From Cryphonectria parasitica EP155 (lineage: Eukaryota; Ascomycota; Sordariomycetes; Diaporthales; Cryphonectriaceae): a stretch of 64,000 nucleotides of DNA. Each line of letters starts with the position of its first letter. Position 1 is the stretch's first letter. The stretch spans positions 2,288,759-2,352,758 of the forward strand of contig NW_024468911.1 of the NCBI RefSeq assembly GCF_011745365.1. Reading direction: 5' to 3'. Below the pieces are notes generated by a model. The model was given only the letters and a program-made list of their open reading frames with translations. It made no database searches and was not told where the DNA came from. The position numbers and the translations under genes are program-made. Positions 1 to 19,144 of the stretch are shown here, piece by piece.

Positions 1-511
1 TTGGGATTCGATTGTTCCACGTACGTTTGCTACGCCCATTTCTTACCCTTGGCCACTTTTCCCGGGCACGCCATGTACACGACTGACCATATGCATCGCA
101 ACGATTCAGTTGGACAAGGTACAGTCCAATTCCCGCCGCATAGCGCCCAGTTTCACACACTCTCTGTTGTGCACCAGCTGCACTGCCTCGTGAGTTTTTC
201 TGCGCAACCTATCATATTGCGAGTGTTGGTGCTAACTTCCGATTCAGTGGGCCCTTCACCATTCCTACTACACCGCCTTGCATCGAGGCAATGGGGGCGA
301 GGACACTGCATTAGGCCACGTCCGACATTGCTTTGACTATCTACGGCAGAGCCTGACATGTGCCGCCGATATGACCTTAGAGCCAATCGACCACACCCTG
401 GGAGGCGTCACGGGGTGGGGAAATCCTCGTCTTTGCAGAGACTACTCCGCAGTGGCGGCCTGGGCAAGGGAGCATCGCGCAAATAACTTGAAAGGTTTCT
501 CACATGAATAA
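1..511 (+). CDS. UstYa/DUF3328-family oxidase, 5'-truncated by window edge
   Basis: C-terminal part of a UstYa-type protein, a family of fungal copper-dependent oxidases that cyclise, oxidise or chlorinate peptides in RiPP and related pathways. Visible exons are 1..189 and 248..511; the intron 190..247 (58 bp, GTGAGT..CAG) joins in phase 0. Both family His/Cys motifs are present: HQLHCL just before the intron and HVRHCFDYLRQ after it, followed by a Cys-Ala-Ala-Asp-Met segment typical of the second motif. The start codon and the N-terminal membrane helix lie left of the window. The first ~109 bases may include another intron (GTACGT donor at 21, CTGAC branch near 83, AG at 108-109), so the N-terminal-most residues are uncertain. 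It shares orientation and region with a putative peptide precursor (1863) and a second UstYa gene (2639). Family call is firm; substrate is inferred only from context. Confidence 0.85.
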
Positions 512-1862
512 CCTTCAAGCGTGCCAGAATATGCGAGCATGACGCGAGGTTGCATCTCTCTACCTATGGTTGGTCTGCGGTGAAACGGTCAGGGAAGGGA
601 TGAGCACCGAGTTTCCCGATGATGCTTGATAGTGCAATCCAATCAGGCTGGCTCGATCCATGATACGGCGGCAGTTTCCAGACATTGTGACCGCTAGAAC
701 TGGCCCCTTCGCACCAGGGTAAGACATTATGTGCTACGCACCTTCCAGGGATTAACTTTCGTACTTTGTCGTCCATATAGTACATACTGAATAGCATAAG
801 AACAGATCTATTCTGGTAAATGAATGCTTGGTTTCAGCAAAACCTGGTTATAATATGGGTAGTGGACACCAGAAGATCAATGGCAGGATGTGTTCAGCCT
901 CGGTGGCGATGTGAGAAAATCCATTCCTGGAAACTGATTGGATGGACCGTTGACGATCTCCAAACACTGCTGCTCCTGTAAGTTCGAAAGCCGAAGACCG
1001 TGATGGAATTCCCAAATTCGACCGGCCCCCATATCTTTCTCCACTATCAAATAATCCCAAGGTGTGACGGGCGGTGAATTCATAAGACGTAACCTTGACG
1101 GTCGTGTTACTGTGGTACATCAGCACCCAGGAATATCTCATCATGGGGTGCTTGGATGCTACCCAAGAGAGAGAGTAAGTTCAACAAGGGCTAATGCACG
1201 AGGCTGACATCAGTTACAATCCCGCCGTAGTACAGATAATACTTGATCCAAGTGATTCGTACAGTCTGACAGCTTGGGCGTGGATCAGCATATCCTTCTA
1301 TGTGTTCTTGTGATTCTGATTACATTGATGGGAAGATGATCCTCTTATGTTGACAGACACTAATGCAGTACAAGGTTACAAGGCTGTCAATAGTACCATG
1401 TGGTGAGCGCGGGTTTTTAGTCCTTGCTACCATCTTCATGGTACTAGATTTCAACCTCGTCCACATGTTTACAGTGTTGGTTGGTTTCTAAGTATTTCCC
1501 AGATCTGCAGATGACGCAGGACGCGTAAGGGTGATTTTTCTTGCGGCGGATGTTGATCTGAGGATTGTCCATTCGGTTGATGTGATGCGGAGAGGTGGGC
1601 TGCATATGCTGCAGTCATCGAAGACACCCTGATTCGACATCAGCATCCGAGAGTCGAGAAGAACAAAAGAGTTTGCATGAAGAGGGATGGGGTCCGAAAA
1701 CTCAAACTAGAGTGTTGAGATGTATTGGTGTAGTTGACTATAAATCTCGACGAGGGGAATTTTGATCTACATTTTCCAGGCACCTAAATTACCTGCCCCT
1801 CTCAAGGCCGCTAGATCAATCCGTCAACTTCTTCCACCACAGACCTCTACTACGTTGCCAAC
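512..1862. other. intergenic region with precursor promoter
   Basis: No gene could be supported. Short minus-strand open frames around 564-797 and 848-1144 match nothing I recognise and are interrupted by stops in neighbouring frames. The right end carries a TATA box and the leader of the small secreted peptide gene at 1863. Confidence 0.5.
1739..1745 (+). promoter_or_regulatory. TATA box of the small peptide gene
   Basis: TATAAAT, 118 bases upstream of the ATG at 1863. It supports active transcription of the 43-residue open frame. Confidence 0.5.
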
Positions 1863-2076
1863 ATGAAGATTACTCTCATTCTTGCCTACCTGATGACTGC
1901 TTTGGGCGTTGTTGCTCGCCCTGGTAAGTACAATATCCCCGAAATCCGAGGTTTCACAAAATGTTGTTTGCCGACGTAAGTTGACAGTACTGACTACGGG
2001 ATTAGTTGAGGACTCTGACGAAGCTGTTGCATATCCAGCTTCGGTTGACCAGTCCTGGATTGATTCCCAGACTTGA
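1863..2076 (+). CDS. putative RiPP precursor peptide (43 aa, secreted)
   Basis: Two exons, 1863..1923 and 2006..2076, joined in phase 1. The 82-bp intron has a GTAAGT donor, an ACTGAC branch site near 1989-1994 and TTAG acceptor. The product has 43 residues: a signal peptide (starting MKITLILAYL, hydrophobic to about V17, likely cleavage after A18) and a short acidic tail ending SVDQSWIDSQT. The tail has one Tyr (Y30) and one Trp (W38), the kind of aromatic side chains UstYa enzymes crosslink. Known dikaritin precursors (ustiloxin, phomopsin, asperipin) carry repeated cores separated by Lys-Arg Kex2 sites. This one has neither, so it would be a single-core type. The gene lies between two UstYa homologues on the same strand. 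The signal peptide, TATA box and consensus intron argue for a real gene. The precursor role is inference; a plain small secreted protein is the alternative. Confidence 0.6.
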
Positions 2077-2638
2077 AACACCATTTGGTATGGATCAACG
2101 GCACATCACACCTTCTTCCTCGTGGGAGTACCGTTATCCAGTGGGCAATTGATTGGGTAAACATCCATGGATGCTTTGAATTATCTCTAGTAGTTTCAAA
2201 TATAGCTCGAAGAATACTTCCAGTCCAGAACGACAAATTGAGCCTTAGTGAACACCTGATGCCGTGAATGCGTGAACAATGAGTGATTTGAGCGTACAGT
2301 GCATCTCAAGGAACTTGGCGATTCTGAATGCTTACGGGATGGTCGTTTGAAATACTTTTCCTATTTTGAGGAGGGACAGGAGGGACAGCTAGAGGCCACC
2401 CTCGGGGGGATTTGGGTGGGGGAGGAGGGGGGGGACGCCAAGACGAAAGCATAATTACTCGAGGGTCAGCTTGAAAATGTAGTGCACCCGTTGAAGAGTG
2501 ACTGGTATCCGTTCTAACGACACTCTCATTTGATAATGAGTGTACACATCGCGATTACATTCACCTTTACATAATTGAACCAGATTACCAACTATTTTCT
2601 CGGATTCTTCCGTTCTTGATGTAATCAAGTTCCAGACC
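2077..2638. other. spacer between peptide gene and second UstYa gene
   Basis: Holds the 3' region of the peptide gene and the promoter of the UstYa gene at 2639. A purine-rich, G-run-rich patch lies at about 2371-2441. No further gene is supported. Confidence 0.5.
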
Positions 2639-3637
2639 ATGACAGCATCTGTTGAAGGCTACGAAGCTCTCCTCCGAGACTCGACTGAGGAGTCTGGCGA
2701 GAGCGGAACCAGTGAGAGAAATATGTACCGCGAACAGCGGTCTTCTTTCTGCAATAAGGTCTCAAAGTACAGTTCAACATTAGCCTTCTTCCTCGGCGTC
2801 TCCCTTCTGGTGAATTTCGTCTTGATCCTCTACACCTTTTCGGCATCCGACCCACAAGACAGCGGCTCAATCTACGGTGAGCATGATACTGTTGAATTCC
2901 AAGGAAAAACTTGAGATGCCCATCACGAGACGCGTCGATGGCTAACGCTTTATACTACACTGAAGCTGGGCTTCGACGCAACCTGCCCATCCAGATTTAT
3001 CCAGAAACGGAGTACACCAACACCAATCTCACCGCCACGGCCGAACTCTGGGAAGCTCTGAGCGGCGATCCGGGGGTAGTAGCTCTGTCGACAGAGTTTG
3101 TGAACAAAAGTCGCCTTCCGCATGCCATGCGATTTCCTTGGGACGATGAAAAGGGCGTCTACCTGCTCCAAGGGTTCCATAATTTGCATTGTCTTGTGAG
3201 TGTACTACTCTGTCCTCAAATTTTGATCCAATATCCCACGACAGAAAAATTTAACTAAATGCTTTCAGCGGACTCTCTTCCGTTACATCAAGTATACGGA
3301 GATGCACCAGCCGCAGCATATCGCACTCAGCCATGCACTGCACTGCCTTGACCAGTTGCGACAAGACGTCATTTGCAATGCCGACGACACCCCGCGCTAC
3401 GCAGGGTTTCAACCTGGTGATACGCCTACGACGGGCTCGGGACAGGTCCGAATGTGCAAAAATTGGAGCGAGCTGGAACGATGGTCCCTCGCCAACACCG
3501 CCTGTTTCAAGCATCACGATGAAGTTCCCGGTCCTATGATTGATCGATTCAAGTCGTGTCCTGATGGCCAGGTGCTCTGGCCGACGAAGAGAGAAGAAAC
3601 GACTGCATCCGAATCAGCAAGAAAGGCAGGATGGTAA
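2639..3637 (+). CDS. UstYa/DUF3328-family oxidase, complete
   Basis: Exons 2639..2876, 2966..3195 and 3269..3637 give 278 residues, the usual family size. Introns are 89 bp (GTGAGC, branch GCTAAC) and 73 bp (GTGAGT, branch near AACTAA). The N-terminus is cytosolic and Ser/Glu-rich. One transmembrane helix lies at about residues 48-67 (core LAFFLGVSLLVNFVLILYTF), and the rest is lumenal. Both catalytic-type motifs are intact: HNLHCL at the end of exon 2 and HALHCLDQLRQD in exon 3, followed by CNADDTP. These His/Cys motifs are the proposed metal-binding sites of UstYa proteins. The intron after the first motif sits in phase 0 directly behind the HxLHCL codons, exactly as in the partial UstYa gene at 1. 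Likely role: oxidative modification of the small peptide encoded at 1863 in the secretory pathway. Family certain, substrate inferred. Confidence 0.92.
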
Positions 3638-5006
3638 TATTCATATATTGAGTTTATAAGTGAAGCCAGCACTCGCAGAACTCGCCGGGGGGGTGCGAGG
3701 GATATGAGCGCTACCAGGAGGGGCGCGAATATCATGAGTATGTATGATGGAAAGGCAACGCCTTCACCGATGCAGTTATCAAGGGATCGTTCGACGAGAG
3801 CCTGCGTACAAGCACATAGCCGTTCAAAAGTCCAAGTTATACAGACAATGTTGAAATAGGTACCATCATATTCATTTTTCCATAATATACTTTTGATCTA
3901 AATAGATGAAAGGCCTCAATTCTGAACATACTGTGCCATTTCAAATAGTCAAGCCTGGAGGGGTTGAGACCTTTCTTTGATGTCCTCTAGTTCGGACTTA
4001 AAAGCAATTAGGCATTTGTTGAGATCCAGATCCACTTTCTTTGCCTCGGGATTTTTCGTATATACCATGAAAAAGCATAGCACTTGCAACGGCTGTCTTC
4101 GAAATGCTCCAGTACGTCGACGCACAAATTGTCCCAGGCAGCACGAAAAGGTGTGATGTCGGAAATAAAATCCCCGTCGATAAGGAAACCGGCATATGGA
4201 GTTGCAAAGTAACTAACCCCATAATGACGGTGGCCTCGCTTCCTGGACTTTTGATGCATGAGTATAAGGAACATCACTTCCACTTAAAGACGAGTCGACG
4301 TGCTCTATTAAGGGTAGCATCCATAACACAATCCGATATGTCTTGCAGTTGAGAAGAGGGGAAGCGTGGAGCACAGTTCCATCGTTTCCTGCATCCACGC
4401 ATGCACTCTTTGGAATCTGGCCCTCGAATCACCTGTTCTGAACATTACCACCTTCTTGCAAAGGTATGCTGATCAGGCCTTCTCTGGGTATCCTTCACTC
4501 TGGGCTCCGGGAGAGATCCCCTCATGCCCCCCTCTCCTCCCCCACCACAACGGGATTACTTTCTTTCAAGTTTATTTGTTACGCGTCAAAAAGGCCGCGA
4601 TTATCGGAGGTCGCCGCATATGCACATCTCTGGCAATATCGGCACATGTGTGATGCATGCCGGATCACGCCGGACATAGGCGGCCTAGAACTCGTCGGTA
4701 TCCACACTTTTGCTTCGTAGATACGACGGTATAGAGAAGAATTTTTAGGGTCGTCGTTTCTGTTGCGCGGGAGGAAAGGATTTTCTTTTGGTTCTTTTAA
4801 GGTGTGATCCATCCTCCGATGCCCACATATTATGATAGCGGTCCGTAGGTTGACTTGAGTATTTGAAATATATATTAAAGACTTGGCTCTGGCACTTGAC
4901 TTGGACCACGCTGAGTATTTTAAAAAGATTCTGACCCACTCTTTCCATATTTCCACCTTATTTTTGGGTTCGTTGGATGTGATACACAAACCATCATCGC
5001 ATCACC
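3638..5006. other. intergenic region with a possible gene relic
   Basis: No intact gene. On the minus strand, about 4390-4010, two overlapping frames shifted by one base near 4217 together read like a decayed antibiotic-biosynthesis-monooxygenase/dabb type domain (segments GFLIDGDFISD and AAWDNLCVDVLEHFEDS). This is a weak impression. The right end contains the leader of the MFS gene at 5007. Confidence 0.3.
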
Positions 5007-5945
5007 ATGGCCGACGCACACCCAACCCAGGCCGAAGACCACGGGGTCGACGTGCTAAATAAGAAGTCTGCAGCCGACGCCGAGAGCGCCTACGGAGCCT
5101 CGACCATCCAAGCGGATGCAGAGAAGCAGAGACCGGCACAGATCGCCTCGGGCAAGAAGCGCCCTGGCAACCTGGTCGGCACGGCTATCGAGACGGAGGC
5201 TAGCAAGGGCGCCGGGCTCGATCCCGTGTACGCGGCCAAGGCACAGCTGCTCAATGAGGCGCTTCTTGACATTGGCATGGGCCGATATCAGTGGCTGTTG
5301 GTGGTTGTGACGGCGGTGGGCTGGTTCCTAGACGAGGTAAATTATAATTCATCTGGCGCAAATCTCTCTCTTTTAGTCCAAAATAGAAGATACTAACACG
5401 GCCCCCCAATCAAGTTCTGGCTCGCCTCCTTCACTATCATCCTTCCAGCCGCCTCCAACGAGGCTCAGTTCTACTACTCCTACCAGAACCCCACAGACCT
5501 CATGATCAGCGCCGCGGCGGGCCTCACCCTCGGCGCCGTCATGTGGCCTGTCATGTCGGACCTCTTTGGCCGCAAGCAGATGTTCACCGCCACCGTCGTG
5601 CTCATGGGCATGGCGGGTCTCGTTGGTGCGGGCATGGCTGCCTTTACAGGCCTGTGCGTCGTTGCCTTTGTCGTGGGTTTTGCTGTAGGCGGCAACCAGG
5701 CTGTTGACGCCATCTATCTCGCCGAGTCACTCCCCGCCAGCCACTCCTGGCTTGTCGCCGCCCAGGGTGCAGCCTGGGGTGTTGGCAGGTTGGTCGCGTA
5801 TGCCGTGGGCTGGGCGTTCATCGAGCAGTTCACCTGCGGCACGGGGCCAGACGGCACTTCGACCGCGTCGTCCTTTAGCTCGCGGGCGGACCACACCGGT
5901 GGAGGAAGCACCTCCACCACCAGCAGCACCACCTCCTCCTCGTCG

Positions 5946-5986
<41 letters not shown>

Positions 5987-6947
5987 GTGCCACTACGTCT
6001 CCAACAAGGGCTGGCGGTACACCTGGTGGTGTTTCGGCTGCATCACCCTCTTCCTCTACCTCCTCCGCTTCTCGGTGCGCATGTACGAGACCCCCAAGTC
6101 CCTCCTCGCCCGCCGCCGCGACGACGAGGCCGTGCAGACGACGCGCGACATGGCCCATGCCAGCGGCCAGATCACCTGGCTGAACGAGGCGGCCTTTGCG
6201 CGCGTCGAGTCGTCCATGATCATCGAGGAAGGAGAAGTCGAGGATGAGGAGGCTGGCACCGCCCAGCGGGCCATCGTCAACAGGCGCAGCGGTGGAGCAG
6301 GAGGAGCTGCCGCTGGCATCAGCGCATCCGTCAGGGCCGTGCTGGGCTCCCTCGGTGGACCCCTGGGCCTCGCCTCCCTCGCCCTGCTCTGGGCCTCTCT
6401 GGGCCTCACGTTCATCCTGCAGGCCCAGTTCGTCCAGCCCTACCTCGCCACAGCCCACGGCGTCACCCAGGTCACCGCCACCACCGTGACCCGCCCCTAC
6501 TGGTTTAGCCGCTACGTCTACATCTCCATCTGCGCCATCCCAGGCCCCCTTGTCGCCGCCGCTCTCTCCGAGGTTCCCTTCCTGGGCCGAAGGCGTGCCG
6601 GTGCGCTTTTCTCTCTGCTCGCGGGCGTCCTCATGCTCGCGTCCACGGCCTTGCCCTCGCGGAGTGCCTGGCTGGCGTTCGCATGTGTGCTGTCGTTTCT
6701 CGAGTATGCGCTGCTGGCTGTTGCTACGGTGTATACTGTGGAGGTATTTGGCGCGCCTGCTCGTGGGGCTGGCGTGGCCGTTGTGGGCTTCTCATGGCGC
6801 TTGTTTGGCCTGGTGGCTTGGATCATTGCGGGATATAGCTCAAGCTCGAGCGGTGCAGCTGTTTGGTTCTCAGGAGCACTGTCTGTGGTCGTCGCTGTGG
6901 TTTGGGTTTTCTTGCCCAGAGAGACGAGGGCCAAGGCTGCTGCTTAA
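5007..6947 (+). CDS. MFS transporter with polyserine loop
   Basis: Exons 5007..5336 and 5415..6947 (78-bp intron, phase 0) give 620 residues. After a hydrophilic N-terminus of about 90 residues, the protein shows the MFS pattern of about 12 helices. Loop 2-3 motif MSDLFGRKQ corresponds to the G-x-x-x-D-R-x-G-R-R/K signature, and the end PRETRAKA corresponds to the PETRG motif of sugar/phosphate-type carriers. A large hydrophilic loop before the WRYTWW helix carries 18 consecutive Ser (residues 284-301), encoded by a TCC/TCG/TCA microsatellite. A second acidic loop precedes the C-terminal half. The overall shape resembles SV2-like fungal transporters, but substrate cannot be read from sequence. 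It converges on the JEN1-type transporter at 7388. Confidence 0.85.
5934..5987 (+). repeat. serine-codon trinucleotide microsatellite in the MFS gene
   Basis: Eighteen in-frame serine codons, mostly TCA. Length change by whole triplets keeps the frame, so the loop may vary between strains. Confidence 0.9.
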
Positions 6948-7387
6948 TCGGCTATAGTGGCTGTAGAGATGCCGCCGAGGGATAGTAATGATGGGTGTGC
7001 TGGAGTTGGAGAGGCTGGAGAGCAGTTGGTTGGGATTGATACCGCGATACCCGAAATGCATGACGATGAATACGGACGCTTAGGTTAGTCTATTATTGTT
7101 ATTATTGTAATTATGAAAAAGGGGGACAGGATGAAAAGAAGGAGGGAGGGGAGGACGAGGAAGAGGCAAGACGCCTGCGAACATGGCCTGGCTATCACGA
7201 GTAATGAGAGTGTTCAATTGAAAGTAATGGTAGTAAGATTGCATGTGCTCTGCCACAAGTGCTCTGACTCCAAAACAGAGGGTGTACCTTATGGCATGTG
7301 CGCTCTCAAGACACAGTATACATCACCCAACATGACAAACAACATCCAATAGATGTCGGCTCAAACGATTCTGCCACCCTGCCCTTC
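6948..7387. other. convergent 3' intergenic region
   Basis: Space between the stop codons of the two convergent MFS genes. It has an AT-rich stretch and purine-rich DNA around 7110-7165. No gene seen. Confidence 0.5.
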
Positions 7388-9454
7388 TTAGACCATGCTT
7401 TGTGCCGTGGGTTTCTCCCTTTGGACCTGCCCCAAGCGCTTGACCTCGGCGGCATCCGCCAGATCCTCGTCGCTGAGTCCCATGCCCATCCTCTCGCGGC
7501 GGTGGATGGCTTGCTCGATAGTCTCCTCGTTGGCAATCTCGCGCACGTCGGCGTCATGTTCAACCTCGAATTTGCGACGGAGGTGCTCCGGGCCGATGAA
7601 CTGCACGAATTTGGGTCAGTAGGGGGAAGAGGTCTATCTAAAAACTAAAAAGAAAAGAGGGGAGATTGGGACGTACCGTGAGCAGGATAACATAGGCATA
7701 GACGCAACCCATAAAGATGCAGATCACCTTGCCATAGTTATACCTCGGAGTCGACTTCCCGTCTTTCACCAGCGGGGAGAGCGGGAACCTCTCGCCGGTG
7801 GTGGCCTCGATGGTCGAGCTCGCCGAGCTGACCAGGTTGCCGAGTTGGTAGGACGTGCCCACGACAAAGGTGCGGAATGCGCCGGGAGACAGTTCCATCA
7901 GGTGGATGGGTATCACGCCCCACGCGCCCTGGACGCAGAACTGTTCGAAGAAGGCTGCGGCTATCACGCGCTCGGTCGTTACAAAGGTGTACGGGTACAG
8001 GAGTGCGCCACCCACGACACAGATGCAGATGATCGAGAGGCGCCGGCCAAAGCTCTGCGAGAGGTAGCCGATCACCGTACCACCAGTCATAGCACCCAAA
8101 TTAGCGACGACCTGCGTGACGGTCACGGCGTTGGCACCAAATACAAATTGGTTCTGGAGCATCGTGGGGTAGAGACTGGGTTGGAGTTTGGTCAGCTGGG
8201 AAAGAAAATTTAAACATCGACATGAGATGAGAACACAAGGACTTACTCTTGGCTACCATGGCTCATAAAGTTGAAGCCGGCCATGAGCAAGACAAGATAG
8301 GTGAGCAGAAGCCAGTGTCTCTTCAACGCGACCTTTCCCTCGAGCAAAAATGTCTTGGAGACACTCGAGCCCTCGGTTCGGGCCGTCCTCCGCACAGACT
8401 CGCGCTGCTGGTGGACTCTCGTCTCGGGGAGTAGCAGCCGGTAGACGATGATGAGGATGGGCGGGCAAGCGCCGAACCAGAAGAGTGGGCGCCACCCATG
8501 AGAGGTAGTGTTCACGAGACCTCGAGAGAAGGCGGTCGCGAGAAGATACCCAAAAGCGTAGCCCTGCTGGAGGATGCCGCTCATCAAGCCTCGGGCTTCC
8601 TCTGGAAGATCCTCCAGAGCGGTGGCAGCAGCGTTGCCATAGAGTCCACCCATGGCAATTCCGAAGAGCGCGCGACAGGCAAGAAATTGCTGGTACGTTT
8701 GACAGAAACCAGTGCCCTTCACAAGGAAGCCACCGTTAGTGAATTATTTTTTTCTCTCTCTCTCTACTATTGCAACAAGGATTGTGTGTCTCCTGACTTA
8801 CCAATTCAAGGACGACAAACAGCAGGTTGTTCACGATAAAAGGCCATTTTCTCCCGTAACGGTCGGCTGCGATACCAAAGAGAATCGAGCCCACAGCTAA
8901 AAAGAGAAGGACAAGCTGTCAGCTCAAAATCGGCACATGCACGTTGGGTAACCACTGAAAGCTTACATCGAAACATAAGCACCAGAGTAATCCCCCAGGT
9001 GATTTCGGCAACAGTCTTTCCAAACGTCTCGGCGAGATCGGTAGCGGTCAGAGAAACGGTGAAGAAGTCAAAGGCATCCCAAGTCTGTATAGTAGGGGGA
9101 AAATCAAAAGATCAGCCTCTAATCAGTCTCTAGCTGGGGCAGAGAGATGCAACAGGGAGGATGTAGTGTGAGAGTGAGAAGGTGGCTCCCAAGAATCTCG
9201 AGACTTACCCAGCCGAGGAATCCGACACCAAAGAAGGCCCAGTGGTGAGCACTGAGCATCAGCAACAGCTTGATTGGGTTTGGCAGCTTGGTCATGGGAG
9301 GCTTCAGGCTGGTGAAGCGAGTGCGGATGTACTCTCCGACAGACATGCCATGGTGTGGCGGCTCATCACCCTGGTGGCCAGCAACAGCACCCTCTCCTTC
9401 GAGGCGGTCATGAGCCAGACCATGGTCTACGGTAGGCTTCTCGTGGTCTGCCAT
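7388..9454 (-). CDS. JEN1-type monocarboxylate/proton symporter (MFS)
   Basis: Six exons on the minus strand: 9209..9454, 8967..9084, 8802..8896, 8247..8716, 7677..8175 and 7388..7600. All frames join, giving 546 residues. Splicing 8247 to 8175 restores NFMSHGSQDLYPTML, which contains the NxxS/THxS/TQD signature of JEN1 lactate/pyruvate/acetate/succinate transporters. Other hallmarks are AADRYGRKWPF in loop 2-3, GIAMGGLYGN in helix 4, and TSYQLGNLVSSASSTIEA in the C-terminal half, as in fungal JEN1 homologues. It is a plasma-membrane carrier that imports monocarboxylates with protons. In yeasts such genes are repressed by glucose and induced on non-fermentable carbon; no regulator site was proven here. 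The cytosolic tail is charged. Family assignment is strong; the exact substrate is not known. Confidence 0.88.
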
Positions 9455-11538
9455 GTTTGGTTGCTCAGGTTCGGTGAGTTGGGTTGCGCTGATGCAAGCA
9501 GCGCGTTAGGGAAGACGGGGAGAGTGAAGAGATGAAAGAGGACTATGTGCCGCTGGTATTTACTGGTAGCAGTAACACCTGTGTGCAGACACGGAACAAG
9601 ACGTAGCAAAGTTTGTCGATGGGAAGGTGAAGTAGAAAATATAAGAAAAAAGAGAAGACCACCAAAAGAGTCTGGTAAACACTAGACTAGAGAGGCTGCA
9701 TGGGGTCAATGGTGCGGGGTTGCACGCCAGTAAACCTAGTGCAGCTTCATGTGCTGGGGAAAGAGCAAAAGGAAGCTGAACTAGGCTTCCCTGGGATTAT
9801 CTCAGGCCATCCATCATCTCTGATCCCTGGCCCCTTCCTTGCCATGTACAGCAGTACTTGAGTACTTGCCTACAGGACCACATCTTCCATACTAGCAGGT
9901 AGACAGACGCCTTCAGCTGGGGTCTTATTCCCTTGGTTCGCATACACATTCCTATCCTCAAGGGTGGGAGACTACAGCCTCGTGAGTTTTCCCCGACTCC
10001 AGCATCAATAGCCTGCATCACCTGGCATCACAGTGATTAAACAGAACAGCCCTCTTCTCGATAGTATTGAGACATCCTCACCTCTCTGTCTTGGTATCAT
10101 TACCACCACCATCATCACAATGTTCTGTCAGTCGAGACCTTTCATCCTCCTTCTGAGCCACACAAACTCTCTCGCCATCGCCAAGGAACAAGAGAAGGGA
10201 GAGGGGAAAGGCTCAGGTGACAGTGGCTGCTTGGCAAGCCGCTGTTGATAGAGTGAGCGTCTTCGGTTATGTATGCGGCTGGTTCCCCATGACTGCTGGT
10301 GGTCTAAAATCATTGAATCCTTTGATAGTCATTGACCAGGCAAAAAGACATGTCGTTTTCCCCAAAAGAAAAGAAGAAGAAAAATCGGGACCACAATATG
10401 CAGAGGACAAGGGTGTTTGGGCTCGGCGATAATGTTCCCCCGCATAATGAACCCCGGGAACTGTGAAGGATCTCTCACGCGGACGATTGCCACCCTCCAA
10501 GCATGGCCAGCATGGTTCCAGTTCGTTGCTGAGTGGCTAGTTAATGTGGGGATGACTGGACAAGGGAAGCATCATCTGGGGATGGATGCGAGGCGGTAGG
10601 GTAGGTACAGTACAATAGGACACTGGCGCCCTTTTCCTCATACAGATCTGCTGGTCATCGACCTGTCCCTCTTGCCATCATCCTTCTCTCTTTTTAATCC
10701 ACCCAGTACTGGTACAATCAACATCCTTCCTTGTTTCCGAGAGGTTGGTAGAGTCTTTTCTTACTACTCGAACCGGCCCCTGAGAGAGCCATGGAATTGG
10801 GACCGCTGTGGATTGGTTGTCTTATCTGGAGGATGGCTACTGTGTGATGTGGAACATGGGTTCTGACTCAAGGCCCCAATCTATCTATCAATGACAAAGG
10901 ACTCGACGTAGTACTATTGCAGGTACATGGCTTTGACAAGGTGCACCATGATACCATAGCATGTAACGGTTCTGTTTAGTTCCTGCCCAGCTCCATATCT
11001 GATGGGTGGCAGGATTTCTGGGGCATGGAGAGAGAGAGCCTAAAGAGACAGGGGGGTAGGAGTGAACTGTGGGGCCCCTAAGTCTGGGGCCTTGTACTTA
11101 GGCGATGCTGGCAGAAAGGGAATTTATCCCCGAAGGGCCTTTGAAGGAATGCCGGCTACCCGGTCAAGGCACAAATATTGTGGTATCGTGCATACTGCCA
11201 TGATAGTTCTGTAAAACCCAGATTAAACCAGGGATTAGCATAGTATGAGTATGGTAGAATGATATTTTGAAAAAGTCTGATACATGTAGCCTAACACAGC
11301 CTCAAGAATGAGCCTGATAGCTAAGCCAGGAAGGCAGGTGACTGGAATATATACTTGGCTGCATGCAGCGGGATTGGTGACGAGAGACTGTAACCTGTGA
11401 ACATGAACTCCTCTCCTATCAAGGCCACGAATTCTGTATATTCTCATCTTCCTTCTATAGAGTATTCCTAGTTAGTCTTCGCACTAGTAAAGTATGTTTA
11501 TCTCGCGTGGGAAGTGTTAGGAACCCTTGCGGTCAAAT
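9455..11538. other. intergenic region upstream of the JEN1-type gene
   Basis: About 2.1 kb with only small overlapping open frames and no recognisable domain. It contains the promoter of the transporter on its left side and the 3' flank of the DUF726 gene on its right. Confidence 0.5.
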
Positions 11539-13812
11539 TCACTGCTCTGCATCATTGCGCAATTGCTTCTCATCATGAATGCCATCGGTCCTTTGTTGAA
11601 CATCTCGTTCCATCTCATCAGCCTCATCCTCCGCAGACCTGCTCTCCCCCTTGCTCTTCTCCCGCGCCGCCTCCTCCTCCTTCTCCTGGCGCTTCAGCTT
11701 CTTCAGCTGCTGCTCGACGGCGGCGGCATCGATGTCCTCGAGATTCAGCTCCTGCAGGATTGAGCCAACCAGGAAGCGGTACTGGGTGTGCCCGAGGACG
11801 AGATCAGACACGTCGACATTCTCAATGCCCCCCACGTCGGGGATCGCCTGCAGGCCGGCGATTCCGTACTGCAGGCTGTTGGCGCGGTACAGGAAGGCGA
11901 GGAGGTAGTCCTTGCTCGAGTACACATTGATCACCCTGCCGGCCACCACAGACCGGATCCGGCGCCAGAGAAGAGGATCAGAGGGGACCGGCCCGCCGAT
12001 CAGGCAGACCGACTCAACCAGGCCAAATGTCCTGCGGTTCGCCAGCTCAGTCAGGCACGAATAGATGACCCTCGCGCCGAGCGAGTACCCCATGAGCGTC
12101 ACAGGCCTCTCGCCCTGCACCTTGTTGATGAGCGCATCGGCTAGGACGACGCCAGCCTTTTCGCTTCGCGACATGGCAACGCTGAACGGGTTGTCGATGA
12201 TGCGAGAGGCCTTAGCCAGGCCGTAGGGCAGGACGAGTGCCGAGGCCAGGGAGGCGAAGATGGTGCGGCTCAGGATCTCCTTCTTGGCGAAGCTCCAGGC
12301 GTAGCTCTTGATGTACGTGTTGATGGCGTGGCCCAGGCGGAGCAGCGCCTTCAGCTCCCAGCGCAGCGCAAAGGCCTCAGTGCTATGTCCGCTGAGGACC
12401 TGCCAGGGGAGGACGGCCTCGTCCTCCTCCGCGAGCCAGCCTGAGATTCCCACGGCCACTCGGAGGTGTCGGGCGTTCCTGTCTTCGTGTTGCTTACCCC
12501 GTTGAAACAGGGAGGGCTTGTTGATGGGCAGAAAGGCGAAGTCCTCCACCTCTTTGGCATATTCGTCCACCATCCTACCCGTCATCCGACCACCATAGGC
12601 GCCGAAGAGCACACCGACGAGCGGCGCCGAGCCTGCCAAGGCTCCGAGGTATCCTGCAGTGGCAGTTGCCCCGAGGCCGAGGCCGCCCATCATGCTGCCA
12701 ACGCCGGCCGCGAGCAACGGTGCTGCCAGACCACCCGTGACACCGATCAGAACCGCTCCAGCCACGGCGCCGAGGCCGACCTTCCACTTCCTTGCTGTCG
12801 AGTTCTCAGCTGCCTTATTTTTGGTCTCTTCGTCGGCGTTCATCTGCTGCTTGGCCACCTCGAGGAGGCCCTTGGCAGTGGACATCTCGTCCTGGGCCAA
12901 CATGTCTACTGAAAGTCCGAGGGAGCTTGTCAGGCGCAGCATCAACACCCGAGACTCTGCCGGATATGACTCCAGCCCCAACAGCAAGAGGAGGATCGAG
13001 TGCATGATGAGGATCCGCCGAGCCTCGCTCAGGGCACCGAGAGGTGTCTCCAGCGGCGGAAAGATCTGCTGAAGGTGCACTTTCCCATCGCTCTTCTCTG
13101 CGACTGGCTGTTCACGACTCGTTGGGCGTGACTTCTGCTCTGGCTTGGCGGCGCCCCCACGATCCTCCTCTCCTCGCTGGTTGACGGCCTCGCCGACTCT
13201 CTGCATGACCTTGTCTCGCCAGCTATCAAAATGACCGAGGGCAGCGTCCTTCAGCTCCATGTTCTCTGGTTTAGAGAGGTCCTTGGTGCGGTTTTCCAGT
13301 GCTTTTCGTTGCTTCTCCTCTCTCTTCCGTTCTGTCTCTGCATCCGTACTAGAGGCTTCAGGCGCCGCCACGTCCTCGTCTGCTGGCACATCCTTCTTCT
13401 CTTCGTCTGCCACAGCTAAACTTCCGAGGCCTATAGCCACCGAGAATGTCTCCTCGTCCGTGTCAATCTTCTTCTTTTCTTCCAGTGGATGTTCATGATC
13501 TTTAGGAGCTCGACTCTCCTCCTTGGCCTGATCTGCTAGCTTTGCCTCGACCTTCACAGCATCGTCCTCCTGTGACTGGTCCGGTGAATGCCCAATCCTC
13601 AGCGGTGTGCCGACCTCAGTTTTACTCGGGTCAAAGGCGTCGAGAATCTGTGCCCGCATGCCCTCCATCAAGTCCGCGACGAGAAGCAGCAGGTTCGTCC
13701 TATCCTCGCGCGTGGGGAGCACGGTGGCGAGGGACTCTTCCTGGCCATGGCTGCCAGGCTTGGAGTCGGTAGCATCGCCCGTCTCCGTTAGGTTCTTGAG
13801 TCTGGACAGCAT
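11539..13812 (-). CDS. DUF726 (TMCO4/Mil1-like) alpha/beta-hydrolase-fold membrane protein
   Basis: Single exon, 757 residues, ATG at 13812. The N-terminal 230 residues are charged and low in complexity. A helical region follows, then a Gly/Ala-rich hydrophobic segment at about residues 345-410 that fits membrane insertion. A hydrolase-like C-terminal half contains GYSLGAR with Ser577 in a nucleophile-elbow position and INVYSSKDYLLAFLYR downstream. This is the layout of DUF726 proteins (human TMCO4, yeast Mil1/YFL034W). Yeast Mil1 binds the AP-1 medium chain at the Golgi/endosome; enzymatic activity is not established. The C-terminus is a charged Glu/Lys/Arg-rich helix. The upstream region at 14041 has a double TTAGGG-type motif. 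Confidence 0.85.
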   Translation of the reverse strand: MLSRLKNLTETGDATDSKPGSHGQEESLATVLPTREDRTNLLLLVADLMEGMRAQILDAFDPSKTEVGTPLRIGHSPDQSQEDDAVKVEAKLADQAKEESRAPKDHEHPLEEKKKIDTDEETFSVAIGLGSLAVADEEKKDVPADEDVAAPEASSTDAETERKREEKQRKALENRTKDLSKPENMELKDAALGHFDSWRDKVMQRVGEAVNQRGEEDRGGAAKPEQKSRPTSREQPVAEKSDGKVHLQQIFPPLETPLGALSEARRILIMHSILLLLLGLESYPAESRVLMLRLTSSLGLSVDMLAQDEMSTAKGLLEVAKQQMNADEETKNKAAENSTARKWKVGLGAVAGAVLIGVTGGLAAPLLAAGVGSMMGGLGLGATATAGYLGALAGSAPLVGVLFGAYGGRMTGRMVDEYAKEVEDFAFLPINKPSLFQRGKQHEDRNARHLRVAVGISGWLAEEDEAVLPWQVLSGHSTEAFALRWELKALLRLGHAINTYIKSYAWSFAKKEILSRTIFASLASALVLPYGLAKASRIIDNPFSVAMSRSEKAGVVLADALINKVQGERPVTLMGYSLGARVIYSCLTELANRRTFGLVESVCLIGGPVPSDPLLWRRIRSVVAGRVINVYSSKDYLLAFLYRANSLQYGIAGLQAIPDVGGIENVDVSDLVLGHTQYRFLVGSILQELNLEDIDAAAVEQQLKKLKRQEKEEEAAREKSKGESRSAEDEADEMERDVQQRTDGIHDEKQLRNDAEQ

Positions 13813-14832
13813 TTGTCAAGATTTCTTTTCTCTCTTCTATCCTCGACAGTCGATGGGAGACAGACAAAGACGGATTTCTGTTATGACTTTCTCACGTTGG
13901 GTGATGTAGAAACTTCGTCCCCCTTTCCTTTAGTTTCTCCCTGCCTCTGCAGAGGCCACCTACTGTGCACATCCGCCCTTCCACACCAAGCAGAGTCAGT
14001 GTGATGTCATGGGCCCCTCGTCATGGGCCCTCTCAAACCTAGGGTTAGGGTTCCTTTTTTGAGATCCTGTTCCGAGCCTGGGGGAGGACTGATCGTTAGG
14101 GAACGATTAATGGATCAAGTACAGGTAAGTGACTTGACAGCTTCGACCGAGGTCACACGAAGCACGCACTATGACGATTGTGGCAGTTCCTCATCAAAGC
14201 AATGGGACGGGAGAATAAGAAGAAAGAAGAAAAACAAGAAATGTACTTCAGACAAAATTACAGCACCACTGTAACGGTTGGTGCAGCCAATGGCCACACC
14301 ATGCAGTTAGGCTGGATTGAAGCGATCCCATCGCAGTCGGAAGTTTATTAACGGGCCTGTAGCGCTGACCTCATTCATCGTCATTTTCCTCCTTGCGTGT
14401 GTTTCCTTCTCCCCCTCCTCGGCCCCTGCATCTCAGAAACAGGCCAAAAGCTGGGGTGATTTACGAGATGTTGCGTCCTCTAATCAAGCTTAACTGTAAC
14501 AGCGGCTCATAATGAGATCATGGTGTCTGGGAATCATCGTACGAGGCTCTCCTTCGGGAACAAGAATATCTATATGCGCTCTGATGTCAGTATTGAGAAC
14601 TAGGAATTGTCTCTAAATATGTTGATTACTTGTGCTGGATTGATTATGTACGTAGTCTAGTGCAGACGATGGATGTGGTTAAAAAGGCGATACTCCCACG
14701 GTCAAGACTCTCCTTCTTTATTCACCACGAGCTTATATCAAAACACTATAATTTACCATCACACCATTGAGAGACTTATCAATCTCGAATCCAAACAAAT
14801 CCCTACACAAAGGTTTTCCAGCAACAAGCAAC
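13813..14832. other. divergent promoter region
   Basis: Shared upstream region of the DUF726 gene (minus) and the Gly/His-rich gene (plus). A 12-base telobox-like motif lies at 14041-14052. No further gene seen. Confidence 0.5.
14041..14052 (+). promoter_or_regulatory. telobox-like motif AGGGTTAGGGTT
   Basis: Two tandem TTAGGG-type units, 229 bases upstream of the DUF726 start. The identical 12-mer occurs 5' of the AlkB-like gene at 28371-28382. Such motifs are bound by Tbf1/TRF-like factors in yeasts; binding here is unproven. Confidence 0.4.
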
Positions 14833-16180
14833 ATGGGTATCGGAACCAAGATCAAGGAGGCGCTTCGCGGCGACGACCACGAACACGGAAATGACGATAA
14901 TACTTCTACACAACACCAATCACAACAGATGCCAGGCAGCTTCCAGAATGATGAGCTCCCTCAGAGGCATGGCGATGGAAAGCCATACACTGCTCCTCAC
15001 GGCAGCATGATTGGCAATGACGGCCACACAGGCACGGCTGGCAATACTTCAGGTATATTCGCACCCCCTCCCCATAGAAAGAACCCTTCACTCTTTCTCT
15101 TACTTCAAGAGCAATGTCCGCCTGTGCAGATGACTGATCATGTCAATAGCCACTTCTGGTGGGAGACACCATGACAACAAGCTGCACAAGAACACCGACC
15201 AGTACAACTCCCCCAGGGATGCATACAACACCTCGTCAACCGACAAACCCAGCCACCATACCGGCGACTCGGGCGTCGGCGTAGGCAGCGCAACGTCCAC
15301 AAGGGACCCTAATCAGAAAGATGCAGCATACTGGGGTAACATCCCCCAGGGCACCCAAGGAGGAGCGACGACGAGGGAGTTGCCCGATCGGTCCACCGGC
15401 CACCATCACCATCACCAACAACACCATCACGACGGCCAGCACGCTGATCAGGCCGTGGGCGGCGGTGTGTACAACTCGGTCACGGGCGCAGGTAGCCAAG
15501 AGCATCCGGGCATGCATGCTACCACTGGCCAGTCCAGCGGCAGAACCGGCGATCCTCTATCGTCCGGCAGCAAGGGCATCCCTTTATCCTCTGCTGGCGG
15601 GAATAGCGGCACTGCTGGAAACAACGACATTTACGACGAAAGAACCAGACGCCATGGTGACGGCGGCGGTGCGCCCACGTCGCGGAATGATCATACCGGA
15701 GCGGGACTGGCCGGCGTGGGTGCTGCCACCGCCGGCGCGGCAGGATATGCGGCGCATGAGCACGGCGGGCACCACCAAGGAGGACGTGACAACACTGGCT
15801 CTACGGGTGGTCATGCGGGTTACAATGATGGCCAGCAATCTGGAACGGCCCCGGGTGTACCTCACAGTAGCATGCTTGACCCTGATCAGGGCTTCAGCGG
15901 TGCGACTGGACACCACAGCAGCAGCGGAGGAGGAGGAGGAGGAGGAGGAGGTGGTGGTGGTGGCCTGGGAACTGGGACCGCTGCCAACTCTTCGGTCGGC
16001 GGCACAGGATTTTCTGGATCAGACCCATCATCAACGTCTGGCGCGGGGAGTACCAATCCCAACCACTTCGGTCCTGGCCATGAAGGATCCAAGGTTCTTC
16101 ACCCGTGTGAGCACTGTGGACGGGATAATGATATCAGCAAGTACTTCAGCAAGGATGTGGCGTATCGTCTGGGCCAGTAA
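14833..16180 (+). CDS. Gly/His/Asn/Ser-rich disordered protein with C-terminal Cys pair
   Basis: Exons 14833..15052 and 15150..16180 (97-bp intron, phase 1) give 416 residues. The start MGIGTKIKEAL is chosen because the frame upstream has no conserved character and the leader ACAACATGG fits a fungal start context. The protein is almost wholly hydrophilic and low in complexity. It contains HHHHQQHHH-type His clusters, many Gly-Asn-Asp-Thr stretches and a glycine run encoded by a GGA/GGT microsatellite (about 15926-15962). The last ~30 residues are different: CEHCGRDNDISKYFSKDVAY, a possible small metal-binding or redox motif. I do not recognise a named family. Composition and the amphipathic N-terminus suggest a hydrophilin or stress-type protein, which is inference. 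Confidence 0.7.
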
Positions 16181-16437
16181 ATTGGTTATCATGTCTAGCA
16201 ACGTATGATTGTACTTGATTATGAATCATTCATTTAATTTTGTGAATTTGGGGTATTTTTTGAATGGACTTTTGTCTCCTGCGCAGCATAGTAGAAAACG
16301 TGTATCCAAGGAGAAACTTTCAAAGCTCAGGGTTAGGTAACCCTGGCCATCTTTCCGCTTCCTGACTTTCCTCACAGAGGGCAGTCAGAATTTGATGCGA
16401 CACTCATCTCAACGACAACCCATTCCACAACGACAAA

Positions 16438-17019
16438 ATGCCATCAACAGACCCAGTGGGCCAAGAAGCCCTCCCCATCGATAATGACGCACCGTCGAAA
16501 TCAACCTCACAACCCCCTACTCTACCCCCTAATGTTTCCATATTCTCCCCCCAGGACAAGCTAGCCTCAAAGACCCTCCTAGAAGCCCGTATCTTCACCC
16601 GCCTTACCGTCAGCGAACAGACAGACCCTTCCCAGCTCGCCAAGGCCCTCGCGGCAAGCCGAGACGTCAATCAGGGCTTTTGCTTAAGTCACGGCAACGT
16701 GGCGCTGGTCTTTGATGCCGAGCAGCAGCAGCAGCAGCAGCAGCAGGAGGAGGAGGAGGAGGAGAAGGTGAAGGATGCGCATCACGAGCACGTTAGGGCG
16801 GTGTGCCTTGCCCTCAAGGACCGGGACATAGGCCTGGACATTGCTGGGTGTGTGTTTGATGCCTCGGGTGCGTTGCAGGCTGGCTTCCAGTTTGACAGGT
16901 TGAGCGATGGGGCGGTGCTGGTGATTGACCTGATGGGCAATGGAGACGATGATGACGACTCCTCGGACGAAGAGGCTAATTTGGGGGCTCTTTTGGCCGG
17001 AGGGGAGGTAGTACAGTAG
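16438..17019 (+). CDS. hypothetical protein with polyQ/polyE tract
   Basis: Single exon, 193 residues, no recognised family. A Pro/Ser-rich N-terminus is followed by a compact region (residues ~38-95) with alternating hydrophobic pattern. Eight Gln codons (CAG, 16723-16746) and six Glu codons (GAG, to 16764) follow. A second ordered-looking region (VRAVCLALKDRDIGLDIAG) precedes an acidic C-terminus with DDDDDSSDEE. The acidic tail suggests a soluble nuclear or cytosolic protein, but no function can be assigned. Codon use is like its neighbours. Confidence 0.6.
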   Translation: MPSTDPVGQEALPIDNDAPSKSTSQPPTLPPNVSIFSPQDKLASKTLLEARIFTRLTVSEQTDPSQLAKALAASRDVNQGFCLSHGNVALVFDAEQQQQQQQQEEEEEEKVKDAHHEHVRAVCLALKDRDIGLDIAGCVFDASGALQAGFQFDRLSDGAVLVIDLMGNGDDDDDSSDEEANLGALLAGGEVVQ

Positions 17020-17454
17020 AGAGGGATAATTGGCTAAGAGAGAGACCATTCAGAACGATGTCTTGTTTTTATTATTATTATTATTATTATTTCGGGAAGG
17101 GGGGGGGGGGGGCAGGTGTCCTCAAAACGCCGGCCGTCCACAATCAAAAGATCCACGAGATATTTCAGCATCAAAGTCACAGAAGAACGGTCTTGAAGGT
17201 TGGCAAATCTTGCAGGATCTGTTTTCAAATGAGACATATGAGGGTGCAGCTGAAGAAGTCAACACACAAGCCACCGCGAAGATCCAGCGTGAAAGCCAAC
17301 AACATATGGCGCCATGATCTCGTGTTTGACCATCCACCGCGGCTCTCCCAAACATCTGCGACACCAGTCACACAAGAAGGACAGTGGAGCGCACTCCCCC
17401 CACACCCCGGGGCAGCAGAAGGCTGCTCAGCCAATACCATCCTCCCACTCATCT
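17020..17454. other. convergent 3' region with simple repeats
   Basis: Lies between convergent genes. It holds an ATT trinucleotide run at about 17071-17091 and a 14-base G run at 17099-17112. No gene seen. Confidence 0.6.
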
Positions 17455-17772
17455 CTAGATCTTCGACGCGAGGACCCCACCCTTGATAATGATGGGCTGC
17501 TCGCTGGAGAAGTTCTTGATGTCCCCCATGACCTCGGCGCCGTGCGCCTGACCACCCTTGGCGAAACCCTCAAGGTCGTCCCAGATCAGGGTGGCCTGCA
17601 CCGAGTAAGGCTGCGCCTCGTTCCGCAGGTCGGTCACATAGTACTGCTTGAGGCCGAAGGAGGTCCACTTGCTGGTCACCAGGGGCATGTGTGTCTTGAG
17701 GTAATAGTCCATGTCGAAGGTATAGCCCTCCTTGGCGGGGTAGAGGACGGTGACGGTTGCGGAGGAAGACAT
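17455..17772 (-). CDS. EthD-domain protein
   Basis: Single exon, 105 residues, the normal size of stand-alone EthD-family proteins (ferredoxin-like dabb fold, usually dimeric). Family features are the early beta strand VTVLYPAKEGYTFDMDYYLKTHMPLV, here with Tyr-Tyr and His, the middle strand SVQATLIWDDLEGF and the C-terminal HGAEVMGDIKNFSSEQP. EthD was named for ethyl-tert-butyl-ether degradation in Rhodococcus; fungal members include decarboxylases and cyclases of secondary metabolism as well as uncharacterised proteins. No biosynthetic genes sit beside it, so its substrate is unknown. A GGT microsatellite lies just upstream at about 17782-17812. Confidence 0.85.
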   Translation of the reverse strand: MSSSATVTVLYPAKEGYTFDMDYYLKTHMPLVTSKWTSFGLKQYYVTDLRNEAQPYSVQATLIWDDLEGFAKGGQAHGAEVMGDIKNFSSEQPIIIKGGVLASKI

Positions 17773-19144
17773 TTTGTATAGTTGGTGGTGGTGGTGGTGG
17801 TGGTGGTGGGTGGTGATATTGAGTGGATGATATTCTTGTTGAATTTTGCAGTGTTGTTGTTCCGATATCTTTCAAAAGGTCGAACTCGTTCCAAGAGAAT
17901 AGAAAACGTTGGCAGGGCCTGTGGAGATTGTTTTATATCTCTCCCTTCGAGTGCTATACTAGTGCGTCCCGAGGTTGCTTTTCCCGCAACCCCGCTCTGG
18001 TGGAGTTCAATTTGTCAGGATGCAGAGTGTGATGGCATGTTGGAGCCAAAAATTGGGGCCCTGGAGCTGCAACGCAGCAGGGCAAACAGTGATGATAAGT
18101 AAAGAACCTATCGATATGTTGGGATGTTCCAGACGCCATACACTGCCGAGAAGCTTGGACAGGGGTTCAAATGTCTAGAGACAACCTCGTGACTGTAAAA
18201 AGTAGGGACAATGTGCATGAAGAACTCAACGGAATTTTATAAGTGGACAGATTAGACAATGATAAAAAGCAAAGGAAGGTAAAAAGAAAGAAATAAAACA
18301 GACACCTTTTCTCCTCTCGACGATTATCAGTGAAGGGAAGTAACGAAATAGAGATGACCAATGACTTTGGCATGAAGGGTGAGATTCAGACAGTGACAGA
18401 TCTCGCCCAAAGAAGTTTAATGGAAACCCTTTCTCAAAGTCCCATAATGAAACCTTCCATAGTCTCCTTGAAAACTATCCAATGACATGTCTATGTACTT
18501 ATCGTAGCTCACACATCGCTCAACAACCCAAGACTTGAAGGTATGCTTGTGATGCTGCAGACAGGACATGGGCCAGGGCAATCATCTCTCATCTTGCAAT
18601 TCTGCAGACAGGACATGGGCCAGGGCAATCATCTCTCATCTTGCAATTCCTTACTGTGATATTTCGATCAGTTTTTCATTGGTCAATGTGAGAAGATCGG
18701 ACCCATGCCTTGGATGTAGGTAAGCATGTGGTTTTTTCTACCGCCAGCTGTTAGTGACGTTTACACGTGCTGTATGTGCGAAACTGCTGCAGCATCTACC
18801 TCTGTCAACCACAAGAAGCATAAGCGCTGTAACATCTGCACAACATTAGGTCACTGTTTGCTTGAATAATTTCTGAGTGTTGAATCGGACTTCAGGCATG
18901 GACATTTTGAAATATTTCATACATGCAGCAACAGGATATCTTCTTGCTCCAGTGCTCTCGGCCCGCCTGTGAAAGCCCCCTGTACAGCGCCTATTCCGCA
19001 TAAGCCAATCAGCAACTGGCGAGGCAGACCACATCACTAGGGAACACCATCCTGGACAAACTACAAGCTCAAATTTCCCCCGATGGTTTTTTCTTCTTCT
19101 CAAAACAACATCATCTTATACTTCCCCTACTCAAGTAATTCATA
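17773..19144. other. intergenic region with 47-bp tandem duplication
   Basis: Divergent promoter region of the EthD gene and the EXPERA gene. It contains a GGT run next to the EthD start and a perfect tandem duplication at 18555-18648. No gene seen. Confidence 0.55.
18555..18648. repeat. perfect 47-bp tandem duplication
   Basis: Copies 18555-18601 and 18602-18648 are identical and both start CTGCAGACAGG. Perfect identity in noncoding DNA suggests a recent duplication. Confidence 0.95.

Follow-up and report, generated by a model that had tools for sequence, protein, structure and literature searches.

A small spliced gene for a secreted peptide between UstYa-type oxidase genes of Cryphonectria parasitica: a candidate single-core peptide precursor

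The locus and its genes

The stretch of DNA considered here ("the window", 64,000 nucleotides, G000:C3:2288759-2352758) lies on contig C3 of the Cryphonectria parasitica EP155 genome (43.8 Mb, 17 contigs). Its left end carries a spliced gene of 43 codons for a secreted-type peptide (MKITLILAYLMTALGVVARPVEDSDEAVAYPASVDQSWIDSQT; ATG at 1863, stop ending at 2076), placed in the 2.1-kb gap between two UstYa-type (DUF3328) oxidase genes, with all three genes on the + strand (Table 1). That a small spliced peptide gene sits between UstYa genes is confirmed: an earlier note, made from the letters of the window, had proposed the peptide gene and its two same-strand oxidase neighbors, and the model of the peptide gene has been reproduced, with a Pfam match and two HxxHC motifs in each neighbor. 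What the peptide is for is a matter of interpretation. On balance, the 43-residue protein is probably a precursor that the surrounding cluster turns into a modified peptide; the other members of that cluster are a major facilitator superfamily (MFS) transporter, an O-methyltransferase and three UstYa proteins. The left UstYa gene has its start 308 bases beyond the edge of the window, and positions 1-511 hold its 3' part only; the left flank is taken from stretch L009 (C3:2280000-2289900), which overlaps the start of the window.

Table 1. Features of the peptide gene, its oxidase neighbors and the left flank (positions in the window unless L009 is named)
Feature	Position	Strand	Details
Left UstYa, end of exon 1	1..20	+	spliced model; start of the gene at G000:C3:2288451 = L009 8452, beyond the window
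Left UstYa, exon 2	110..189	+	spliced model; first HxxHC = HQLHC
Left UstYa, exon 3	248..511	+	second HxxHC = HVRHC, stop; PF11807 6.1e-22 (spliced protein)
TATA-like box TATAAATC	1739..1746	+	about 120 bases 5' of the peptide-gene ATG; consensus only
Peptide gene, exon 1	1863..1923	+	signal-peptide-like start; residues 1-20 and first base of codon 21
Peptide gene, phase-1 intron	1924..2005	+	82 nt, GTAAGT...TACTGAC...TTAG
Peptide gene, exon 2	2006..2076	+	acidic stretch, putative single core EDSDEAVAYPASVDQSWIDSQT, stop
Right UstYa, exon 1	2639..2876	+	N-terminal hydrophobic helix
Right UstYa, exon 2	2966..3195	+	first HxxHC = HNLHC
Right UstYa, exon 3	3269..3637	+	second HxxHC = HALHC; PF11807 2.7e-21 (spliced protein)
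Third UstYa	L009 6964-8070, left of window	-	five exons, 275 aa; PF11807 3.2e-45
O-methyltransferase	L009 5357-6822, left of window		five exons, 393 aa; PF00891 2.4e-23
Fungal-rhodopsin-domain membrane protein	L009, match in 3796-4326	-	profile match
MFS transporter	L009 1272-2746, left of window		MFS_1 match

The peptide gene set against chance

How readily does such a gene arise by accident? A scan of both strands of window positions 1-4000 for signal-peptide open reading frames (ORFs) of 32-110 residues with at most one intron gave four models, and all four use a single ATG, the one at 1863. When positions 1-3700 were resampled 600 times by a first-order Markov model, a spliced signal-peptide ORF turned up in 11 resamples and an unspliced one in 155; spliced ORFs with a hydrophobic stretch matching that of the peptide gene in strength turned up in five of the 600. 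(An earlier run, with its cut-off set just below the observed value, had yielded 0/60 spliced and 11/60 unspliced; putting 11/600 in place of 0/60 as the chance rate of spliced ORFs leaves confidence in the precursor interpretation where it stood, modestly on the favorable side of even.) Real sequence served as a second control: 89.7 kb, made up of window 4001-64000 and the stretches L010-L012, holds two starts with spliced candidates and 19 with unspliced ones; by eye, each of the two spliced candidates is exon 1 of a longer gene, in one case a transporter gene and in the other an aspartyl protease gene.

The composition of the coding sequence points the same way. Its codon log-odds, 0.139, is reached by none of 214 stop-free 43-codon intergenic windows (median -0.174), and falls in the range of the flanking genes (means of 0.10 for the right UstYa and 0.05 for the left). 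The null windows come from nearby intergenic DNA, overlap one another and were also used to train the background; the result is therefore supportive and is not a p-value. The intron has consensus splice sites and a branch-like site.

The product starts like a secreted protein, with a positive N-terminus, a hydrophobic stretch and small residues at a cleavage-like site, as judged by a simple home-made rule that places the cut after residue 15; our own reading places it after residue 18 (VVA-RP). Given a cut after Ala18, the putative mature peptide has 25 residues, RPVEDSDEAVAYPASVDQSWIDSQT, with an acidic start, one Tyr and one Trp. A Pfam search with the peptide found nothing at E up to 1; the one weak NCBIfam match (15.4 bits, with the cut-off at 327) is taken as chance; a paralogue search of the C. 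parasitica genome returned the gene itself only; and the core strings of the peptide occur in 0 papers of the literature searched.

A peptide of this description might simply be an ordinary small secreted peptide of the signal or effector type, lying between UstYa genes by chance and unmodified by their products. Its freedom from Kex2 sites and repeats and its want of an own-genome paralogue would fit that account, as would the ease with which unspliced signal-peptide-like ORFs arise (19 starts in 89.7 kb; 155/600 resamples). Spliced candidates, however, are rarer (11/600 resamples, and two starts in 89.7 kb, neither of which stands alone by eye), only four spliced starts occur across 22 UstYa-region loci, and precursors recur beside the UstYa genes of this genome, as described below. 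We regard this explanation as unlikely.

Three UstYa-type oxidases

All three UstYa proteins bear the marks of their family: PF11807 scores of 76.9, 79 and 155.1 bits (cut-off 25); the double motif HxxHC(x)nHxxHC, intact in each; and a membrane helix, the last of these from reading of the sequence only. The three genes and the O-methyltransferase gene all have open spliced models. Among the loci searched, tblastn places the right UstYa closest to the UstYa of a locus at 4.48 Mb on the same contig (L032); the two spliced proteins are 35.7% identical over 272 aa (blastp, E 1.4e-45), and their first introns share position and phase. In the same set, the left UstYa comes closest to a UstYa on C4 and another on C8, and the third to the UstYa of L033. 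At E up to 1 the right UstYa has no relative among solved structures, and no NCBIfam profile matches it.

DUF3328 enzymes have been characterized as binuclear copper enzymes that are anchored in the membrane and face the lumen; their copper site is HxxHC(x)nHxxHC, and one of them, CctR, forms homodimers (PMC12435403). They are needed to cyclize the cores of ustiloxin, asperipin-2a and phomopsin, via Tyr, and Tyr is present in 65.6% of the repeat sequences found near DUF3328 genes versus 38.2% elsewhere (PMC7329392).

Extent of the cluster and the search for a backbone

The earlier note had offered a minimal cluster of three genes or, alternatively, one that continues to the left; reading the left flank bears out the alternative. 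A third UstYa gene, an O-methyltransferase gene, a gene for a rhodopsin-domain membrane protein and an MFS transporter gene lie there (Table 1), and the minimal three-gene cluster is ruled out by the oxidase, the methyltransferase and the transporter. The note's remark that no methyltransferase is visible holds inside the window and fails just beyond it. (The frame of the fourth exon of the O-methyltransferase gene, searched alone, has no profile match.) Because the left flank holds these four genes, the cluster likely extends over about 11 kb, from C3:2281271 to 2292395. Further left, in L010-L012, the longer ORFs, read by eye, are those of housekeeping or unrelated genes. To the right of 3637 there are two MFS-type frames, the second of which is below the MFS_1 cut-off and just above that of Sugar_tr.

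Some minor features of the surrounding DNA may be recorded here. A run of TCA-type codons at window 5934-5986 encodes a poly-Ser loop within an MFS transporter frame; window 18546-18639 is a tandem pair of 47-nt copies, 94% identical; and in L010 a long open frame (2658-3851) carries long Gln/Asn codon-repeat tracts early on, at 2658-3168.

Might the cluster hide a precursor of the conventional, repeated kind? Three repeat scans, covering respectively L009-L011 with window 1-20000, L009 and L010 with the whole window, and L009 and L010 with window 1-12000 (allowing up to one intron), disclosed no repeat precursor in the cluster, and that candidate is accordingly rejected. The filter used with the whole window also missed the imperfect precursor of L032, which the scan allowing an intron caught; weakly repeated precursors could therefore escape the former. 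Apart from the peptide gene, the scans for small signal-peptide ORFs found no credible candidate in the cluster.

A different possibility is that the UstYa trio and the methyltransferase tailor some other backbone (the product of a distant precursor gene, or the small molecule of an undetected synthase) and that the peptide is incidental. DUF3328 enzymes do act on non-ribosomal peptides and polyketides, as in the pathways of cyclochlorotine (PMC12435403) and of atpenin and astins (cited in PMC12048977). Against this, neither a condensation domain of a non-ribosomal peptide synthetase (NRPS) nor a ketosynthase of a polyketide synthase (PKS) is matched on C3 between 0.21 and 4.5 Mb, and hence none within 2 Mb, in a search with terpene synthases outside its range; a nearby NRPS or PKS is rejected, and, because of this result, a non-ribosomal or polyketide backbone is unlikely. 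A search for AMP-binding domains scored only 14 of 68 candidates and is weak as a negative, so that the exclusion of a small NRPS-like gene comes only from inspection by eye of the longer ORFs in C3:2250300-2289900. Taken as a whole, the idea of another backbone seems quite improbable.

Precursors at other UstYa loci

The genome itself provides a standard of comparison. Its exon-level PF11807 matches, at least 36 in number, were grouped by eye into 18 loci, and the flanks of the 17 others were scanned for precursors over about 7.5-18 kb each. Clear multi-core secreted precursors were found at four of the 17: 1) on C8 (L020 4677-5460; G000:C8:2090677-2091460), 12 cores APAYVWASVN stand between KR sites; 2) on C7 (L018 6503-6973; G000:C7), there are eight units like DTDTTEGVVTWADVAAR with single-Arg spacing, and several UstYa genes nearby; 3) on C6 (L024 5818-6431; G000:C6), a signal peptide MKFSTVIAVLAQAFAVSAAAIP precedes six units like RDENWNAAAWSNFVKSYVDGAEEAK; 4) at C3:4.48 Mb (L032 4682-5088), there are three imperfect cores, AAVLPALEVKNKR, AAGVRALNFKR and APGVVPALEFKDKR. 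The last is convergent with its UstYa gene; the pair spans L032 3071-5088, with the gene ends about 0.5 kb apart. So some UstYa genes have secreted precursors, and most of the loci showed none. Additional flanks at the C4, C6 and C7 loci gave no clear precursor, and the repeat ORFs at L021, L029 and L028 are doubtful.

These loci have peculiarities of their own. The C8 precursor is of the textbook Kex2 repeat type and lies about 4.5 kb from its UstYa cluster; the C6 precursor adjoins a UstYa gene whose six-frame match contains one TAG, possibly within an intron. At L029 6767-7683 (G000:C4:773 kb) a signal-peptide ORF and a Tyr/Gly-rich, KR-containing repeat lie between a UstYa gene and an NRPS gene. 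L015 (G000:C4:107-114 kb) packs five UstYa-type genes into about 7 kb, with no secreted precursor found there, and a PKS ketosynthase match is at C4:129 kb. Beside the C7 UstYa genes, at G000:C7:2273873-2274049 and about C7:2280004, are frames with pairs of H..HC motifs (YHYVHC / KHTNHCEM and YHYQVIHC / HHTSHCEM) that are outside the PF11807 match list and are possibly a divergent subfamily.

Is the peptide related to any of these precursors? The peptide gene and the C6 and L032 precursors each have a phase-1 GTAAGT intron shortly behind the region of the signal peptide, and in the peptide gene and the C6 precursor it directly follows x-Pro; the intron of the C8 precursor is of phase 2 and lies elsewhere, and the C7 precursor is read without one. 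Homology of the peptide itself with the own-genome precursors is rejected, being non-significant with BLOSUM62 (the counts are given below). Aligning EAVAYP-ASV of the peptide with EAPAYVWASV of the C8 core under an identity-only score, chosen after the alignment had been seen, gave a result that was reached in 61 of 20000 shuffles; it is suggestive at most, a lead that is not counted as evidence.

The shared gene start and intron do invite the thought that the peptide gene is what remains of a decayed multi-core Kex2 precursor of the C6 or L032 kind, with its repeats lost and its cluster silent or dying. Yet the reading frame, splice sites and codon usage of the peptide gene are intact, no relic repeat was found downstream of it, and all three UstYa genes and the methyltransferase gene have open spliced models. 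Such a history is very improbable.

A single-core precursor?

The best reading of the locus, and a plausible one, is that the peptide is a single-core, Kex2-site-free precursor of a dikaritin-like ribosomally synthesized and post-translationally modified peptide (RiPP), the peptide being the presumed substrate. The clear precursors at four of the 17 other UstYa loci, together with the lack of an NRPS condensation or PKS ketosynthase match within 2 Mb, strengthen this interpretation. In its favor stand also the place of the peptide gene among three UstYa genes and an O-methyltransferase gene, its coding-like codon usage and consensus splice sites, the failure of the scans to find another credible small secreted ORF or a repeat precursor in the cluster, the double HxxHC motifs of all three oxidases, the secreted multi-core precursor about 0.5 kb from the nearest paralogue of the right UstYa, and the phase-1 GTAAGT introns of the C6 and L032 precursors.

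Several observations weigh against it. 1) The peptide has one core, unrepeated, and no KR, RR or KK beyond the signal peptide, hence no Kex2 site; all four clear precursors of the same genome have repeats, and three have KR sites (the C7 precursor has single Arg). 2) At 13 of the other 17 UstYa loci the scans turned up no clear precursor. 3) The cluster has no tyrosinase (on C3 the match nearest to the peptide gene is at 2382797, some 92 kb off), and near it there is no match to an S9 peptidase or to the kexin-type P-domain, the latter having a single match in the genome, on C5. 4) A phase-1 intron after the signal peptide is common among secreted proteins. 5) With BLOSUM62 and the peptide shuffled, alignment scores were equaled with C8 units in 1113 and 1114 of 5000 and 656 of 4000 shuffles, with L032 units in 2432-2621 of 4000, and with C7, C6, C1 and C4 units in 2756, 1018, 2007 and 326 per 4000; shuffling the C8 unit instead gave 1273 and 1603 of 5000. 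None of these is significant.

How might a single-core precursor be processed? The signal peptide would direct entry into the endoplasmic reticulum and would probably be cut off after Ala18, leaving the 25 residues, of which the acidic stretch VEDSDEAVA may be the leader. At least one of the three membrane-anchored UstYa copper oxidases, with catalytic parts presumably facing the secretory lumen, would then oxidize or crosslink the single core, at a site around Tyr30-Pro-Ala-Ser-Val-Asp and perhaps at Trp38. Trimming of the leader would fall to general aminopeptidases instead of Kex2 (just before Tyr30 there are Glu-Ala and Val-Ala pairs). A phenol or a carboxylate may receive a cap from the O-methyltransferase, and the MFS transporter would export the product. 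In its most specific form the proposal is of a kexin-independent, spliced precursor, in an ascomycete, whose 43-codon transcript delivers one copy of the core to a three-oxidase DUF3328 cluster; it is put forward tentatively, at somewhat less than an even chance.

Relation to known systems

A DUF3328 protein with two HxxHC motifs is class-defining for dikaritins according to Montalban-Lopez 2021, and the list of Ding 2015 adds a methyltransferase, a tyrosinase, a transporter or a peptidase (both as cited in PMC12048977); functional clusters missing at least one listed gene, the example given being the peptidase, were reported later (PMC12048977). The present cluster has the secreted leader, the DUF3328 genes with double HxxHC, the methyltransferase and the transporter; it has neither repeated cores nor Kex2 sites nor a tyrosinase. 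It resembles the ustiloxin, phomopsin and asperipin-2a systems in placing a candidate secreted precursor, with Tyr in the putative core, beside several double-HxxHC DUF3328 genes, a methyltransferase gene and an MFS transporter gene; it differs in having a 43-aa peptide with one core in place of repeats, without Kex2 sites, in a cluster without a tyrosinase. Because two defining features, the repeated cores and the Kex2 sites, fail, we do not file it as a dikaritin; it may be called dikaritin-like in mechanism. Thus, of the earlier note's suggestion of a RiPP precursor beside UstYa-type genes, the precursor has gained ground and membership of the ustiloxin/phomopsin class goes unsupported.

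Four other systems bear comparison. Lichen RiPP clans R1 and R2 are likewise DUF3328 clusters with no repeated precursor; some genes there have a signal peptide and putative Kex2 sites, but no precursor was settled on, a single core being among the possibilities raised (PMC12048977), whereas here there is a specific 43-aa, spliced, Kex2-free candidate. The cyclochlorotine cluster also has three DUF3328 genes (CctO, CctP2 and CctR, the last copper-dependent; PMC12435403), but its backbone is non-ribosomal, and nothing near the present cluster matches an NRPS condensation domain. For Trichoderma reesei a 109-aa precursor with one KK site has been proposed, and the printed gene list of its cluster names no UstYa (PMC7099791). 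Nearest to hand is the own-genome precursor at C3:4.48 Mb, which adjoins the closest paralogue of the right UstYa and shares with the peptide gene a signal peptide, the phase-1 GTAAGT intron soon after it and acidic spacers; it differs in having about three imperfect cores cut by KR, and the alignment of the peptides is not significant.

Implications

Would surveys of fungal RiPPs pick up a precursor of this form? A survey of Venturia (PMC9632046) and a second survey of fungal RiPPs (PMC7329392) both selected for a signal peptide together with tandem repeats carrying kexin (Kex2) sites, and repeat-based searches would miss the single-core form. In the titles and abstract openings of the open-licence literature, with subscription journals mostly outside, no single-core precursor beside a UstYa gene is described.

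If the proposal is true, a tiny, spliced, repeat-free ORF adjoining a UstYa gene becomes a searchable signature, and a "missing" type of precursor is supplied for DUF3328 clusters in which repeat mining finds none. The locus would also provide a DUF3328 enzyme with a natural substrate of 25 residues: a short linear peptide, together with three candidate copper oxidases, with which the function of DUF3328 and the peptide features that it needs could be tested.

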